Source: Planctomycetota bacterium (GTDB lineage Bacteria; Planctomycetota; Phycisphaerae; Tepidisphaerales; Tepidisphaeraceae). From it: a stretch of DNA of 64,000 nucleotides. The DNA is taken from positions 1 through 64,000 of the forward strand of contig JBCDCH010000009.1 of the NCBI GenBank assembly GCA_039182125.1, read 5' to 3'. This document shows positions 3,410 to 9,253 of this stretch, in pieces. Position 1 is the stretch's first letter. Each line of letters begins with the position of its first letter. The notes below the pieces were generated by a model. That model was not told the origin of the DNA. It saw nothing but the letters and a program-made list of their open reading frames with translations, and searched no databases. Both the position numbers and the translations under genes were made by a program.

Positions 3410-4353
3410 TCCTCGGGCTTTTCACCCTTGGGGCGGGTCTTCCAACGGCGATGGACCCAAAGGTACTGCCCCGGATCTTCACTGACGAACGTCTCGATCC
3501 CGCGGGTGTAGCGTTCGGTGATGTACCGCAGCGGGTCGTCTTGCGATTCCCAATCCTCGGGGTAGATCACGTCGGACGCGCCGACGTGGAACTGAAACTT
3601 GCCCTCGACCCGTCGTGCGTAGCCGACGACGACGGGGACACGGTACTGCATGGCGAGCAGCCCGATCGACTTGTACGTCGACGCGAGCCGGCCGAAGAAC
3701 GGGACGAACATCCCTTTCGGCCCGGCGTTCTGGTCCGCGATGAACCCGACCGCGCCGTGGTTGTCGAGTGCGTTGGACACATCAACCGTCGCGCCCTTTT
3801 TGTCGACGATCTTCTGTCCGAGGCGTTCGCGCACGCCGAGCAGCCAGTCATTGATGTAAGGGTTGTCCAACGGCCGCGCGACCGACACCGTGTCGAACCC
3901 GAGCAAGGCGAGGACATAACCGAGGATTTCCCAGTTGCCGTAGTGGCCGGTGAGCATGATCACGCCGCGATGCTCATCGAGTAGCAGCTCGATCGTTCGG
4001 CTGACTTCGTTGAGGTGGACGATGCGGTGGACGTTTTCGAGCTTGGCGAGGCGTGTGGTGAAAAGCACCTCGACGAACAACGCGAAGAACATGTGCATGG
4101 AGCGTCGGGCCATCGCCTCGCGTTGGGCTTCGGGCATGTCGGGAAAGCTACGCCGCAAGTTCTCAAGTGCGCGGATGCGATGCCGCTTGTCGAAGCGGTA
4201 CATGACATCACCCAGGCGCGCGGCGAAGTCGAGATTCGACTCCACCGGCCAGCACTGCATGACCGCAACCACACCGCGAAGTGCAACATATTGGAGGTAG
4301 TCGAGTACCTTACTGCGGGGCTTCTTCGGCTTGGGCGATCGGCGTCGGCTCAC
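3406..4353 (-). CDS. LpxL/HtrB-type lysophospholipid acyltransferase
   Basis: A 315-residue member of the lipid A biosynthesis acyltransferase family, which transfers a fatty acyl chain to lipid A precursors or related lipids at the inner membrane. The HX4(D/E) catalytic motif is visible as HYGNWE at 137-142. Other family blocks are IADQNAGPKGMFVPFFGR and a C-terminal WVHRRWKTRP. The basic N-terminus (SRRRSPKPKKPRSK) precedes a hydrophobic stretch that fits a membrane anchor. GTG 4353 is chosen as the start; the open frame continues upstream but crosses the divergent GYF gene. The 3' end overlaps the acylphosphatase stop by 4 bp. It implies an LPS-type outer membrane. Confidence 0.88.
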   Translation of the reverse strand: MSRRRSPKPKKPRSKVLDYLQYVALRGVVAVMQCWPVESNLDFAARLGDVMYRFDKRHRIRALENLRRSFPDMPEAQREAMARRSMHMFFALFVEVLFTTRLAKLENVHRIVHLNEVSRTIELLLDEHRGVIMLTGHYGNWEILGYVLALLGFDTVSVARPLDNPYINDWLLGVRERLGQKIVDKKGATVDVSNALDNHGAVGFIADQNAGPKGMFVPFFGRLASTYKSIGLLAMQYRVPVVVGYARRVEGKFQFHVGASDVIYPEDWESQDDPLRYITERYTRGIETFVSEDPGQYLWVHRRWKTRPKGEKPED

Positions 4354-4366
4354 GGGGACGCCAACG

Positions 4367-4372
4367 TATACT
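4367..4372 (+). promoter_or_regulatory. Putative -10 element (TATACT) of the GYF gene
   Basis: TATACT lies 8 nt before the ATG at 4381, with no Shine-Dalgarno sequence between. Normal -10 to start-point spacing would put the transcript end at or within a few bases of the start codon. No convincing -35 was found. Confidence 0.4.
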
Positions 4373-4380
4373 GGACTCGC

Positions 4381-4980
4381 ATGGGTGATGAAAGCGACAA
4401 CCCGTTTGGTAATCCTCGTCGCAGGGACGATTCGGGATCGTACGACCTCGCGCCCGATCCCTCGGCCGATTGGTACTGGGCCGAGGGCGACCAGCGTCAC
4501 GGACCGGTGACGGGCGAGGAACTGCGCGACCGCATCCGTGCCGGCAAGCTCACCAGCGATCAACTCGTCTGGCGTGCGGGCATGGAAGACTGGCGAGCGG
4601 CCGGCACATTGCCGGTACTCCAACAGGCGTTCCACGCCCCGGTCAGTCCTGCCATCCCGCCGGTTGCGCCGTCCAACACGCTCCAGTACCGAACCGCCCC
4701 GACCCGGGACAACGGCTTCGACAGTCTTGCCGGCCAGGCGACCGGCGCGATGGTGTGCGGCATCATCGCGGTGTTCTTTGGCATGCCGGGTATTTGCTGC
4801 TTGCCCATCTCGGCGGTGACGCTGGTGCTGGGGCTGATCGCGTTGGTGCTCGGGTACAACGCCCGGGCAAGCACCTCGCGCGGCGGCCAGGCGACGGCGG
4901 GCATCGTGCTCGGTTGGATCAGCCTGGCGCTGTGCGTGCTTTCGTGCGGGTTTACGTTTGCCCTGGGTATCAGCGGCTGA
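4381..4980 (+). CDS. GYF_2 domain protein with DUF4190-like membrane region
   Basis: A 199-residue membrane protein. Residues 31-80 form a GYF_2 domain (WYWAEGDQRHGPVTGEEL, then QLVWRAGMEDW), a probable peptide-binding module. A linker follows, then two hydrophobic segments at about 117-150 and 168-195 that resemble DUF4190. This domain pair is common in planctomycetes and related bacteria, where its role is undefined. It is divergent from the acyltransferase gene and 160 bp upstream of the degenerate secretion-ATPase gene. Cytoplasmic placement of the GYF domain is inferred. No catalytic residues are apparent. Confidence 0.8.
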   Translation: MGDESDNPFGNPRRRDDSGSYDLAPDPSADWYWAEGDQRHGPVTGEELRDRIRAGKLTSDQLVWRAGMEDWRAAGTLPVLQQAFHAPVSPAIPPVAPSNTLQYRTAPTRDNGFDSLAGQATGAMVCGIIAVFFGMPGICCLPISAVTLVLGLIALVLGYNARASTSRGGQATAGIVLGWISLALCVLSCGFTFALGISG

Positions 4981-5140
4981 ACCGGCGATTCGGATCCCAT
5001 CGGAATGGTCGGCCGACCCGGCGCGGACGATTCGCGGTCGGTCGGTTGGCGATGCGGCGCGGGTTGCGTTATGCTCCCGAGCCCGCCGAAACCGCCGGCC
5101 AGTTGGTCCGGTGACACCCACGAGAACCCGAGGAGACGGC

Positions 5141-6874
5141 ATGCCCGACGCGTGCTTGAGTCTAATCAACCCGCTGTTCAGTCTGACCGACTTCGCCACG
5201 TTCGCGACCGCCGCCCCGACCGACTCGGTGCCAACGCTGAACCTGCCCGAAACATCGTTCGGCCCGTTCGTCAACGGCCTGCTGGCCATCCCGTTCGTCA
5301 TTGTCATCCTGATCAGCGCGAAGCTTGCCGCTTGGGCGGACAAGGACGCGCAGGCGAACCGGTTGCCCCGGGAGATGATCAACATCATCAGCCTCGCCTC
5401 GTTGGCGCTCGCGGGGATCGTGTTCTTCGCACTGCCTTCTTTCCTGCTCGCGTTTGCCGGGAGCGTGTTGATTCTGCTGCTGGGCGGCGGAATCTTCCTG
5501 GGCATCCGCAACGGCAAGGTCGGTCTCGGAGATCTGGGCGAAGAACTCAGCGACTACTTCGGCAGCCTCATGCCCGGTAGCGGCAAGACGACCCGGAAGA
5601 AGAAACAGGAAGACGAAACAGCCATTGAGGGCGAGGTTGTGCTCCTCGATCAGGCGAAGATGCCGGTCGCCGTGCCCGAGGCCGAGGAGCCGACCCGGCC
5701 CGGGTACGTCGCGCTTCAGCAGGTGCTCGCGGTACCGTTGCAGCAGGGGAGTGAGCGGATCGACTTACTGCCCGGCTCTAGCGGCGCCCAGGTCCGTTAC
5801 AGTGTTGACGGCGTCGCATACCCGGGTGCGACGCTCTCGACGGATCAGGCCACTGCGGCAGTCACCACGCTCAAGCGCATCATCGGGCTGAACGTCGACG
5901 AACGTCGCAAGATTCAATCTGGCACGCTCAACGCCCGCAGTGTTCACGGCTCGCACAAGATCGGAGTTACGACGTCCGGCTCGACCAACGGTGAGCAGCT
6001 CAAGCTCGAGGTCGACAAGCACAACCGCTACGGGATGAAGCTCGACGAACTCGGCTTTCGCAAGAGCCAGCTCGATCGCATCCGCGGACAGCTTTCCGAG
6101 CCGGGGGTCGTCCTTGTTGCGTGTCCGCCGAACAACGGGCTGCACACCTTGCTCTACGGTTTGCTCCGCGAACATGATGCGTTTCTTTCGCACATCCAGA
6201 CGCTTGAGCGTGAAGAACTGTCCGATCTCGAAGGCATCACGCAAAACAGGCTTCAACCCGGTGATAGCGAAGCCGAGCGTGTCGACTGGTTGGTGAGCCA
6301 GCAGTCGGACGTGATGATGGTCGAGAAGCTCGAAGACCCGCAGGCAGCCCGCATACTTGCCGACTACGGCAAGGATCACATCGCCTACCTGGGCATCCGT
6401 GCGTCGAGCACGTTCGACGCGATCACCCGCTGGCGGAAGTTCGTCGGCGACGACAAGGTCGCGCTCGGCTCGCTGAAAATGGTAGTCGCGGGTCGCGTGT
6501 TCCGCCGACTCTGCCCGGCGACGAAGGTGCCGTACACGCCCGACGAACGGGCCCTGCGCTCGATGGGCCTTTCGCCGGACAAGGTCAAACAGCTTTACAA
6601 GGCCCATGTCGGTCCGCTCACCGACGCCAAGGGCAACGAGGTGCCCGACACTTTCTGCCACGGCCTTGGTTACAAAGGCCGGATCGGCGCGTACGAGGCT
6701 TTCCTCCTCGACAACGAAGCCCGCAAGGCGCTGATCAGCGGGGCATCGGGCCAGCAGATCAAGAGCCTCTTTCGCAAGCAAAACGGTCGCTACATCCAGG
6801 AGATGGCGCTCGGCATCGTGCAACTCGGTGAAACCGACCTGCAGGAAGTCCAACGCGTCATGCAAAGCAAATGA
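5141..6874 (+). CDS. Membrane-anchored degenerate PilB/GspE-like ATPase homologue
   Basis: A 577-residue protein whose C-terminal two thirds follow the PilB/GspE secretion-ATPase layout. Around residues 225-325 is the N2-like region (VRYSVDGVAYPG, then LKRIIGLNVDERRKIQSG), then the nucleotide-binding domain. The Walker A position (327-336) reads ACPPNNGLHT instead of GPTGSGKT. The Walker B region reads VMMVEKLED instead of the usual GEIRD, and the zinc tetracysteine is incomplete. Residues about 45-65 and 82-115 are hydrophobic, an anchor absent from normal GspE. The start follows a good Shine-Dalgarno (AGGAG). The last 4 bp overlap the CvpA-like gene. A pseudo-ATPase scaffold is inferred; a sequencing artefact is unlikely because the frame is intact. 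Confidence 0.75.
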   Translation: MPDACLSLINPLFSLTDFATFATAAPTDSVPTLNLPETSFGPFVNGLLAIPFVIVILISAKLAAWADKDAQANRLPREMINIISLASLALAGIVFFALPSFLLAFAGSVLILLLGGGIFLGIRNGKVGLGDLGEELSDYFGSLMPGSGKTTRKKKQEDETAIEGEVVLLDQAKMPVAVPEAEEPTRPGYVALQQVLAVPLQQGSERIDLLPGSSGAQVRYSVDGVAYPGATLSTDQATAAVTTLKRIIGLNVDERRKIQSGTLNARSVHGSHKIGVTTSGSTNGEQLKLEVDKHNRYGMKLDELGFRKSQLDRIRGQLSEPGVVLVACPPNNGLHTLLYGLLREHDAFLSHIQTLEREELSDLEGITQNRLQPGDSEAERVDWLVSQQSDVMMVEKLEDPQAARILADYGKDHIAYLGIRASSTFDAITRWRKFVGDDKVALGSLKMVVAGRVFRRLCPATKVPYTPDERALRSMGLSPDKVKQLYKAHVGPLTDAKGNEVPDTFCHGLGYKGRIGAYEAFLLDNEARKALISGASGQQIKSLFRKQNGRYIQEMALGIVQLGETDLQEVQRVMQSK

Positions 6875-8223
6875 CCCTCATCTTCAGCCTTACGTTTCTG
6901 CTGCTGGTCGGTGTCGTGGCGTACTTCCACTACATCCAGAGCGCGTTTTCGTCGGTGCTCAGCGCGATCTTCGCCGCCCTTGCCGCCGTTCTTGCCGTCG
7001 GCTATCACCAGACCATCGCGACTCTCGGCGGCGCGCCGCTCGGCCCATACGGCGATTCGGTCGCCATGGTCGCCATCTTCGGTGTCAGCTATCTGCTACT
7101 CCGCATCGCGTTCGACCGGTTCGTGCCGGGCAACCTCATGCTGCCGGTTACGCTCGACCGTGTCCTCGCGGTGGTCGGCGGCCTTGTCGCGGGGATTTTT
7201 TGCGTCGGTACTGCCGCGACCGCGGTCCAGCTTTTGCCGTTCGGGCCGAAGGTGTTTTTCTACAGCCCGTACGCGCTGGAGACCCGATCCGACACCGGCG
7301 AAGTCGAGGGCGTTCGCGGTCGGATCACGCTGACCCGCTTCGACGAACTCCAAGCCGACGCACTTGATTCGAGCGAGCGGACGAACATCCTGCTGCCGAT
7401 CGATCAGTGGGTCGTCGGTGTCGCCACGCACGTTAGCGATGGCGGTTCGATGGCGGGCTCGAACAACCTTGCACAGGTCAATCCCAACCTGCTCGACAAT
7501 GCATACGGGCAGCGCCTATCGCTACAGCCCGGGGCGGACATCATGCTCATGGTCGGCGTCGCGGGCAAGGAAGACGCCAGCGTCAAGGCCGTCTACCGCT
7601 TCACCGAGCCGGTTCCGCAAGTCAGCGGCGAGATCGACGTGGTGCGGGAAGACGAACTACCGGCGAGCTTTACACCGGCCAACGGGAAATCGTTGCTCGT
7701 GGTGCGGGTGGGGCTCTCGGGCGACGCCGGCGATAGCGACGGCAAGCTCCGCTTCGCCCCAGCTGCGGCGCGGTTCAACGCCGATCGTGGCAACGACTAT
7801 GCCATCGGCACGTTCACCGAGAGCGGCGTCCTCGTCCGCAACAGACCCGACGACTTCCTCATCGCCCAAGCAGGCGGTGACGTGTTGCTCGCGTTCGAGG
7901 TCGAGAGCGACGTGTTCGAAGGTGCCGAGAACGTGCTGGTCGATGACGCGATGGTGACGTTCAAGCGCTACGGCCGGCTGCCGATCGGCGGGGCCAGCGC
8001 GGGTGCCTTCGAAGCGACCGCGACTGACAGTGTCCTACGCAAGAGCGATGTCGCCGACGCCATCTCGGCCGCGCGGCGTGGCAATCCCGCACCCGCCGCC
8101 GCCGATGATGAAACGGAAGACGAGGAACCGTCGGGCACGAGCGGCGCTCAATCCACCGACACGACGCCGGGCGTTCGTGGCCTGCGTGGCCAGATCGAAG
8201 AGCGGAACGAACAGATCGAGTAG
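6871..8223 (+). CDS. CvpA-like membrane protein with large extracytoplasmic domain
   Basis: A 450-residue protein translationally coupled (ATGA) to the degenerate PilB-like gene. Residues 1-125 hold about four hydrophobic segments in the arrangement of CvpA (colicin V production) proteins, including VAMVAIFGVSYLLLRIAFD. The rest is a hydrophilic, beta-rich-looking domain of unknown family ending in an acidic, low-complexity tail (residues about 400-450). The domain is presumably extracytoplasmic. Coupling to the pseudo-ATPase suggests the two act together at the inner membrane. Function is not recognised beyond the CvpA-like N-terminus. Confidence 0.65.
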   Translation: MTLIFSLTFLLLVGVVAYFHYIQSAFSSVLSAIFAALAAVLAVGYHQTIATLGGAPLGPYGDSVAMVAIFGVSYLLLRIAFDRFVPGNLMLPVTLDRVLAVVGGLVAGIFCVGTAATAVQLLPFGPKVFFYSPYALETRSDTGEVEGVRGRITLTRFDELQADALDSSERTNILLPIDQWVVGVATHVSDGGSMAGSNNLAQVNPNLLDNAYGQRLSLQPGADIMLMVGVAGKEDASVKAVYRFTEPVPQVSGEIDVVREDELPASFTPANGKSLLVVRVGLSGDAGDSDGKLRFAPAAARFNADRGNDYAIGTFTESGVLVRNRPDDFLIAQAGGDVLLAFEVESDVFEGAENVLVDDAMVTFKRYGRLPIGGASAGAFEATATDSVLRKSDVADAISAARRGNPAPAAADDETEDEEPSGTSGAQSTDTTPGVRGLRGQIEERNEQIE

Positions 8224-8239
8224 GCCACGCGGGCGGTGA

Positions 8240-9253
8240 TCAAAGCCGTGTGCGTCGGTCCTCGTCGAGCTTTTCTCGGATCACCCGACACGGGTTACCG
8301 ACCGCGACCACGCCGGCCGGGATGTCTTTGGTCACCACGCTGCCCGCACCGATCGTGGTGTCGCTGCCAATGGTGACGCCCGGGAGAATGACCGCGTTGC
8401 CGCCGATCCATACGCGATCCCCGACGGTGACCGGGTGTGCCGTTTCGTAGCGTTCGGCCCGTCGTGTCGGATCGATCGGGTGGTGAGGCGTGTAAATCTG
8501 AACGTGCGGCCCGAGGAAGCAGTCGTCACCGAACCGGATCGTCGCACAGTCGAGAAACACACAGCCGTGGTTGGCGAAGAACCGGTCGCCGACGTGGATG
8601 TGCCGGCCGTAGTCGCAGTGAAAGGGCGGCAGCACGGCCGGCCGCTCGCCCACGCTGCCGAAAAGTTGTTGAAGCAACGCCTCGCGTTCGGCGACATCGT
8701 CGTTGCTCGTCATGTTGTACCGCTCGGCGAGGCGTTTGGCCGTGTCGATCAGGTCGCCCATGAGCGGGTCCCCCATGCGGTAGGTCATGCCGCGATGAAG
8801 CCGCTCATAGTCCGCCCTTTCGTCGGCCCGCTGCTCGAGCGTTTGCTCGTCCCACATTGCCAGCGGTGGTCGGCCCATCGCCACGGCGCTCGCGGTTGCA
8901 TGGGTCGTGACGTGACTCAGTGATAGTGACCACGTCGAGATGCCGATCCGAGCCGCGATCTGCTCGGCTTCGCCCGAGAGTTGCAATGCCGGTCGGCCAG
9001 TCGGCTCGCGGACGACCTCGACGTCGGTCCAGTTGATGCCGTGCCGTCGGCCGGTACCGATGGCTTTGAGCGTGGCCTCCTTCGCCGCGAACCGCGCGGC
9101 GAGGTGTTCCGCCGCCCGCTTTGGGCGCCGCTTCGAGTACGCCAGCTCGTCGGCCGTGAAACATCGCTGCTCGAACCGCGTCCCATGTCTCTCGAGTAAC
9201 TCCCGGATGCGTGCCACTTCCACGATGTCGATGCCATGCCCGAGCAGTTGCAT
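8240..9253 (-). CDS. acpS: Fusion of holo-ACP synthase and maltose/galactoside O-acetyltransferase
   Basis: A 337-residue two-domain protein. Residues 1-125 are a complete holo-[acyl-carrier-protein] synthase, which attaches 4'-phosphopantetheine to ACP: GIDIVEVARI with Asp9, FAAKEATLKAIGTG with Glu59, and SLSHV at 111-115. After a linker (about 126-145), residues 146-330 are a complete Maa/LacA-type acetyltransferase: a Mac domain (DYERLHRGMTYRMGDPLM), then left-handed beta-helix hexapeptides with the catalytic-His region (YTPHHPID) and GNPCRVIR at the end. Each half is normally a separate enzyme. One uninterrupted frame joins them. Its stop is 16 bp from the convergent CvpA-like gene. Confidence 0.9.
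   Translation of the reverse strand: MQLLGHGIDIVEVARIRELLERHGTRFEQRCFTADELAYSKRRPKRAAEHLAARFAAKEATLKAIGTGRRHGINWTDVEVVREPTGRPALQLSGEAEQIAARIGISTWSLSLSHVTTHATASAVAMGRPPLAMWDEQTLEQRADERADYERLHRGMTYRMGDPLMGDLIDTAKRLAERYNMTSNDDVAEREALLQQLFGSVGERPAVLPPFHCDYGRHIHVGDRFFANHGCVFLDCATIRFGDDCFLGPHVQIYTPHHPIDPTRRAERYETAHPVTVGDRVWIGGNAVILPGVTIGSDTTIGAGSVVTKDIPAGVVAVGNPCRVIREKLDEDRRTRL

Follow-up and report, generated by a model that had tools for sequence, protein, structure and literature searches.

A membrane-anchored PilB/GspE-family pseudoATPase encoded beside a CvpA-like protein in the Phycisphaerae

What becomes of a secretion ATPase once its catalytic residues are gone? This question is raised by two overlapping genes, here called A and B, in a 64,000-nucleotide window of a planctomycete genome (class Phycisphaerae, family Tepidisphaeraceae; positions 1 to 64,000 of contig JBCDCH010000009.1, assembly GCA_039182125.1). 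Gene A encodes a relative of the PilB/GspE ATPases and gene B a CvpA-like membrane protein. The initial annotation of this locus regarded the pair as a secretion-ATPase scaffold that had been repurposed and anchored in the membrane. In its fold A is a member of the PilB/GspE superfamily, yet it lacks the catalytic features by which those ATPases are defined. The loss of the ATP site, the membrane anchor and the inheritance with a membrane partner across the whole class suggest a machine put to a new use, and not a gene that is broken. The reading we favour, with about even confidence, is that the pair belongs to an old motor module of the inner membrane and that its anchored, PilB-like protein is now a pseudoenzyme scaffold in the Phycisphaerae.

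Fold, catalytic residues and selection

The PilB-like fold that had been proposed for residues 190-577 of A was borne out. The Pfam family PF00437 (T2SSE) matched residues 193-572 with an E-value of 6.3e-26 and 91.3 bits, against a gathering score of 24.9. The AlphaFold model of A (33-row alignment) had a mean predicted local distance difference test (pLDDT) score of 87.4, and Foldseek matched this model to chains of PilF, PilB and GspE, with PilF at the top (E 5.8e-34, probability 1.00). Thermus PilF, GspE and PilB came out best among the solved relatives, and the identity to canonical PilF/PilB/GspE structures was 21-26% in the best 24 rows of the Foldseek output. A also scored far under the equivalog cut-offs for GspE (TIGR02533; 131.1 versus 630.25 bits) and PilB (TIGR02538; 113.8 versus 675.65 bits). 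Like these ATPases, A has the N2D plus C-terminal domain fold and the residues of the pocket framework, and most of its relatives likewise keep the zinc loop. It differs from them in having three membrane helices in place of the soluble N-terminal domain, and in having lost the catalytic Lys, Glu, Asp and His.

These losses extend across the class. In an alignment of 83 Phycisphaerae rows the Walker A Lys was kept in none, and no row contained GxxxxGK; the position is occupied by ten different residues (L in 30 rows, R in 21, V in 17, I in 5, Q in 3, S and T in 2 each, and H, G and A in 1 each). The column of the catalytic Walker B Glu holds E in only 17 of the 83 rows, and the Asp-box Asp and the second His of the His box are mostly lost. 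In the window both Walker motifs are replaced (Table 1), as had been annotated, the Asp-box Asp and the second His have become R357 and R420, and the Ser/Thr position of the P-loop is a His. It might be argued from the rows with Arg for Lys, and from those that retain Glu in the Walker B column, that this unorthodox P-loop still hydrolyses ATP. We consider this very improbable, since so many different residues stand in for the Lys, since the Asp-box Asp, the catalytic Glu and the His-box His vary too, and since in the window these positions are occupied by L, R, K and R.

While the catalytic residues vary, the pocket framework is nearly invariant. The last Gly of the P-loop and the Asp-box Glu were kept in 83 of 83 rows, and the N2D Arg and the N2D Gln in 81 of 83 each (the framework residues of the window are G333, E356, R256 and Q259). 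When all columns of the domain were ranked by entropy, the percentiles were 0.51-0.94 for the catalytic columns, 0.00-0.08 for those of the pocket framework and 0.03-0.06 for the zinc columns. All four zinc-binding Cys were present in 78 of the 83 rows, the exceptions being the window and four others. The replacement of the zinc motif noted initially is therefore correct for the window, where two of the four Cys are left, but a family-wide loss was rejected. Three genomes of one genus in family f4 (L110, L114 and L115) have lost three of the four Cys, in a pattern that differs from those of the window and of L050.

The conservation of the pocket framework and the zinc loop implies that the shape of A has been kept, be it for a scaffold ring or for a ligand sensor. 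As a sensor, A would bind a nucleotide or second messenger without hydrolysing it and would signal through B. The invariance of the framework beside variable catalytic residues would suit this explanation, and there is a precedent in Myxococcus: two reports describe that nucleotide-free PilB signals to exopolysaccharide control, and that M. xanthus PilB with a dead Walker A motif still signals (PMC5544727; PMC11656802). On the other hand, framework conservation could merely preserve the fold; the phosphate-contacting Lys is gone from all 83 rows, and in the window so is the Ser/Thr of the P-loop. Some PilBs bind cyclic di-GMP through an N1 domain, and no counterpart of this domain was seen in A. 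On balance, we regard the sensor as unlikely, albeit worth keeping in mind.

A is also under purifying selection. The ratio of nonsynonymous to synonymous substitution rates (dN/dS) was 0.050-0.220 for A in nine of nine species pairs and 0.049-0.424 for B in the same pairs, with dS close to saturation in some of them. Taken together with the loss of motifs and the conservation of the framework, these values indicate that A is maintained as a pseudoenzyme and is not decaying. The opposite view, that A is a decaying pseudogene or a hitch-hiker without present function, could appeal to the lost catalytic motifs and to one broken locus; it is hardly credible in view of the dN/dS values and of the open reading frames (ORFs) in the 83 aligned class rows. 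In the broken locus, which is L065 of genome G009 (reverse strand, about 5388-8273), frameshifts split both A and B across several frames. Joint decay of A and B was set aside here, because nearby ORFs look fragmented too and sequencing error is likelier.

Membrane anchor and CvpA-like partner

Three membrane helices were identified near the N-terminus of A, not the two originally described; two-helix anchoring was rejected because both the AlphaFold model and the hydropathy scan contain a third hydrophobic helix. All three segments exceeded the threshold of the hydropathy scan in 82 of 83 class rows (the remaining one, a partial row, falls short or could not be scored) and in 14 of 14 rows from the lineages with intact catalytic residues that are described below, whereas by hydropathy none of the 4-5 scorable canonical references had such an anchor. 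The class means for Lys/Arg were 0.11 before helix 1, 2.33 in the loop between helices 1 and 2, 0.02 in the loop between helices 2 and 3, and 4.67 after helix 3. Judging from this pattern, the N-terminus of A probably lies outside and the PilB-fold domain in the cytoplasm. A signal-peptide-like start was seen in 10 of 14 intact-lineage rows as opposed to 7 of 82 class rows. In an Armatimonadetes outgroup of 61 genomes, none of the matches listed starts before model position 92; anchored forms of A, for comparison, start by about position 20. Other phyla, including the nearest ones, were sampled with four genomes.

Gene B overlaps gene A by four bases, in agreement with the initial annotation, and its assignment to CvpA is based on its relatives and not on the window protein alone. 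The latter reached 10.1 bits (E 0.79) with the Colicin_V/CvpA profile (PF02674), which is under the cut-off of 29.3. Of the 30 members of the B-family alignment, 29 matched Colicin_V at E≤1 (best 2.5e-10), and three of six B partners from the intact lineages exceeded the cut-off (L162, L163 and L166; 33.4-46.1 bits), the other three (L153, L160 and L161) scoring 10.4-25.9 bits. The model of B has helices at residues 2-22, 25-52, 55-84 and 93-120. B thus resembles the CvpA (Colicin V production) family in its four-helix membrane bundle and its family-level profile matches, and differs in adding a large beta domain, in pairing with a PilB-like gene and in scoring under the cut-off by itself. The cvpA gene of E. 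coli lies with purF.

Proteins of the B family usually have 340-850 amino acids in the class, with a region past the bundle, and 185-255 in the other lineages. The beta domain of the window's B, which we place on the periplasmic side, had no Foldseek match at E≤0.001, and its VIA matches (Z≤6.9) are too low for a family name; several of the matched chains are secreted or lipoprotein domains. A CvpA-like bundle followed by an extracytoplasmic domain is also the layout of MarP, a membrane protease in which a serine protease domain comes after the bundle, and B would share this layout if its beta domain is indeed extracytoplasmic. One intact-lineage partner had a weak match to a MarP model over residues 9-134 (E 0.0037). 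In B, however, the C-terminal region is modelled as a beta-sandwich; Pfam scans of B matched no protease family, and the structural matches were weak and to beta-sandwiches only.

Each of the 101 relatives searched contains a protein that matches A at E≤1e-10, a figure that includes ordinary GspE/PilB proteins, and full-length orthologues of A are near-universal in the class. A set of 17 loci comprised 13 close relatives of A with 40-45% identity and four ordinary homologues from other phyla; ten of the 13 carry Phycisphaerales or Phycisphaerae names (metagenome-assembled genomes) and three carry Planctomycetaceae or Planctomycetota names. A conserved pairing with CvpA, which had been named beforehand as a check on the annotation, was found throughout the class. 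By script, an ORF with 3-4 helices was located 3' of A in 77 of 82 items (the window and 81 loci) at gaps of -4 to 190 bases, and B was present downstream of A in a further three (L059, L082 and L107) when the frames were read by eye, so that all 80 class loci in which the pairing could be tested have B behind A. Two loci were not testable: L119 ends 128 bases after A, and the broken L065. L030 was counted as paired although its B is cut to 88 amino acids, the contig ending 284 bases after A.

Intact orthologues and the upstream pilT gene

Homologues that keep GxxGxGKT had been regarded in advance as speaking against a pseudo-PilB. None was present in the class alignment, but they do occur in other planctomycete families. 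In a sample of 294 genomes of the phylum there were, among the matches listed, 45 with a full-length A, 22 from the class and 23 from other families (16 from f44, three from f51, two from f85 and one each from f94 and f65). GPTGxGKS/T is kept in 20 of these 23 genomes (16/16 in f44, 3/3 in f51 and 1/1 in f65), and the Walker A Lys is lost in f94 (1/1) and f85 (2/2). The Walker B Glu was kept in 14 of 14 aligned intact orthologues, and a CvpA-like ORF with 3-4 helices follows A in 20 of the 23 genomes. As the intact orthologues are anchored and mostly have the CvpA neighbour, anchoring and pairing predate the loss of the ATPase residues. The idea of a membrane-anchored pseudo-PilB with a CvpA partner is supported across the class, but not in the sense that anchor and partner came with the loss.

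In the tree of A, the intact f51/f65 and f44 sequences diverge earlier than the dead forms. The Phycisphaerae, represented by 38 rows, make up a single clade, with a support of 98 in the Shimodaira-Hasegawa-like approximate likelihood ratio test (SH-aLRT). The dead forms of f85 and f94 stand beside the class (SH-aLRT 91) on long branches, and this tree permits a single loss (minimum one change). In the tree of the PilT proteins encoded upstream of A, however, f94 and f85 group with f44, whose A is intact (SH-aLRT 100). Because of this latter grouping, and because the grouping in the A tree is one of long branches, at least two losses are favoured: the ATPase residues were likely lost once in the Phycisphaerae and, it appears, a further time in f85 and f94.

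This upstream gene offers the best hint at what the module does. In 57 of 100 loci with corrected coordinates, a gene for a PilT-type ATPase precedes A, giving the order pilT-A-cvpA; in the window's family none of 24 loci has it, against 48 of 59 in the rest of the class and 9 of 17 in the other families. It stands apart from A in L104 and L119, at distances of 2,030 and 529 bases. GxxxxGK[ST] is kept in all 56 upstream PilTs of the main count, L169 being the 57th. The three operon PilTs that were scored reached 390-407 bits with TIGR01420 (cut-off 319.1) and so belong to the same family as the PilT/PilU retraction ATPases. The operon PilTs differ from these in forming a separate clade tied to the A-cvpA locus (SH-aLRT 99), which holds when the remaining PilTs from eight genomes are included. 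Copies of the operon clade are also present in G099 and G159, the one in G099 not being beside its A. The best PilT score in 26 genomes of the window's family was 410 bits, compared with 523-607 bits for seven whole-length operon-type copies; an eighth operon-type match, in G096, is a fragment. The window's family has thus lost the operon-type PilT while retaining A and B, which is why the first reading of the window missed pilT. A GTTGSGKS-type PilT of this family was rejected as a displaced operon PilT, as it falls outside the operon clade and groups with a type that is also present in G130. Clustering of neighbours revealed no conserved pilus gene adjacent to A or B besides pilT, pilus components such as pilin, PilC and PilM-N-O-Q not having been searched by profile. 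In 27 loci, for example L162 and L168, either A or the whole pilT-A-cvpA set is preceded by a gene that by eye resembles hisF, with hisF-pilT-A-cvpA as a recurrent order.

A could also be a non-catalytic subunit that co-assembles in a mixed ring with a canonical PilB or GspE encoded elsewhere. PF00437 matches 12 proteins in the genome of the window, several of them intact PilB/GspE, and there are f44 genomes in which an intact anchored A occurs together with a second, soluble pseudo-GspE. We nevertheless find mixed rings rather improbable, considering that A brings membrane helices of its own and is consistently paired with CvpA, that no canonical PilB/GspE was prominent beside A in the neighbour clustering, and that the identity of A to canonical structures is as low as reported above.

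The soluble copies were seen in eight f44 loci with an intact anchored A (L171, L260-L262 and L265-L268). They have about 434-527 amino acids as called, and their P-loops read GPPxSGxTT, GPSNSGTTT or similar, without Lys. In four of the listed f44 loci the soluble copy follows dapA-like and 3-hydroxyisobutyrate-dehydrogenase-like genes, and in L265 it lies near two GspF/PilC-like ORFs (all named by eye). Further soluble GspE-like copies without a GxxxxGK match are present in L263, L264 and L269.

Proposed role and features of the window

In the inner-membrane motor module that we favour, A and B would be the membrane core of an old planctomycete module consisting of pilT, an anchored pilB-like gene and cvpA. 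A would be held in the inner membrane by its three helices, with the N-terminus outside and the PilB-fold domain in the cytoplasm, and B would be a four-helix CvpA-type membrane protein that in the class bears a presumed periplasmic beta domain. The ancestral A would have been a working ATPase. In the Phycisphaerae, where the catalytic residues are gone and the fold, the pocket framework and usually the zinc site are retained, A would now most likely be a ring-like scaffold that holds or gates B, any ATP work being supplied in trans by the PilT of the neighbouring gene. In the window's family, from which the cognate PilT is gone, A and B would have to use another PilT or work without an ATP motor.

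Several points weigh against this proposal. The contacts of A with B and with PilT, and the ring, are inferred. The distances of A, B and PilT co-vary over 43 loci (partial r of 0.65 for A and PilT given B, and of 0.24 for A and B given PilT), which speaks for the module, but this co-variation is confounded by shared ancestry. In three genomes of one f44 genus (L157, L254 and L255) A is intact and the scanned distance downstream of it holds no CvpA-like ORF, and A can therefore exist without an adjacent B. Likewise, the absence of the cognate PilT from the window's family means that PilT is not essential to A and B everywhere, and the beta domain of B has no confident structural match.

More tentatively, and with somewhat less than even confidence, the module may be a distinct planctomycete inner-membrane motor that is separate from any pilus, in which PilT and the anchored PilB-like ATPase work with CvpA as the membrane platform. 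Such a machine would have passed from two motors to one and, in the window's family, perhaps to a scaffold without a motor and with a periplasmic arm on CvpA. If this is true, the poorly understood CvpA family gains a cytoplasmic ATPase partner. CvpA proteins are common, although what they do at the molecular level is unclear. The present evolutionary series sets intact and dead forms of one anchored ATPase next to the same CvpA partner, which makes testable both the function of CvpA and the way in which a secretion motor keeps its job without ATP. A role in the cell envelope may be a reasonable first test, as one study reports that cvpA is required for deoxycholate resistance in enterohaemorrhagic E. 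coli and Vibrio (PMC6705877). In the open-licence literature on CvpA with GspE, PilT or planctomycetes we found no description of a pilT-A-cvpA module, and in the literature searched on PilB/GspE no class-wide conserved pseudoenzyme.

PADLOC returned no defence-system match for A or B. Its matches to PilT and to intact forms of A were weak and resemble generic P-loop matches, and membership in a defence system was rejected.

Table 1. Positions of genes A and B and of their features within the window.
Feature	Position	Strand	Basis
Putative ribosome-binding site of gene A, gaggag	5130-5135	+	Read from sequence
Gene A, membrane-anchored PilB/GspE-family pseudoATPase, 577 aa	5141-6874	+	ORF reading (start ATG 5141, stop ends 6874), Pfam, AlphaFold model, Foldseek
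A, transmembrane helix 1, residues 46-66	5276-5338	+	Model helix 46-72; hydropathy 2.56
A, transmembrane helix 2, residues 76-97	5366-5431	+	Model helix 77-97; hydropathy 2.57
A, transmembrane helix 3, residues 100-122	5438-5506	+	Model helix 101-126; hydropathy 2.41
A, T2SSE/PilB-like domain, residues 193-572	5717-6856	+	PF00437, Foldseek; predicted cytoplasmic by positive-inside rule
A, degenerate Walker A CPPNNGLHT, residues 328-336	6122-6148	+	Motif alignment; canonical GPTGSGKS/T
A, degenerate Walker B region, residues 390-399 (catalytic Glu column is K396)	6308-6337	+	Alignment
A, remnant zinc motif (C458 and C506 kept, T461 and D503 replaced)	6512-6658	+	Alignment
Gene B, CvpA-like four-helix membrane protein with C-terminal beta domain, 450 aa	6871-8223	+	Start ATG 6871, stop ends 8223
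B, four-helix membrane bundle, CvpA/Colicin_V-like, residues 2-120	6874-7230	+	Model; family-level Pfam matches
B, beta-sandwich domain, residues 136-371	7276-7983	+	Model; weak Ig/secreted-domain-like matches, Z≤6.9

Directly upstream of A, at 4333-4980 on the plus strand, lies a gene for a membrane protein with GYF_2 and DUF4190-like regions, and in L160, too, A is preceded by an ORF that by eye looks GYF-like. On the minus strand at 8240-9253 there is an ORF of 337 amino acids that appears to be a fusion of a holo-ACP (acyl carrier protein) synthase, recognised by eye, and a hexapeptide acetyltransferase, the Hexapep match being in its C-terminal part.

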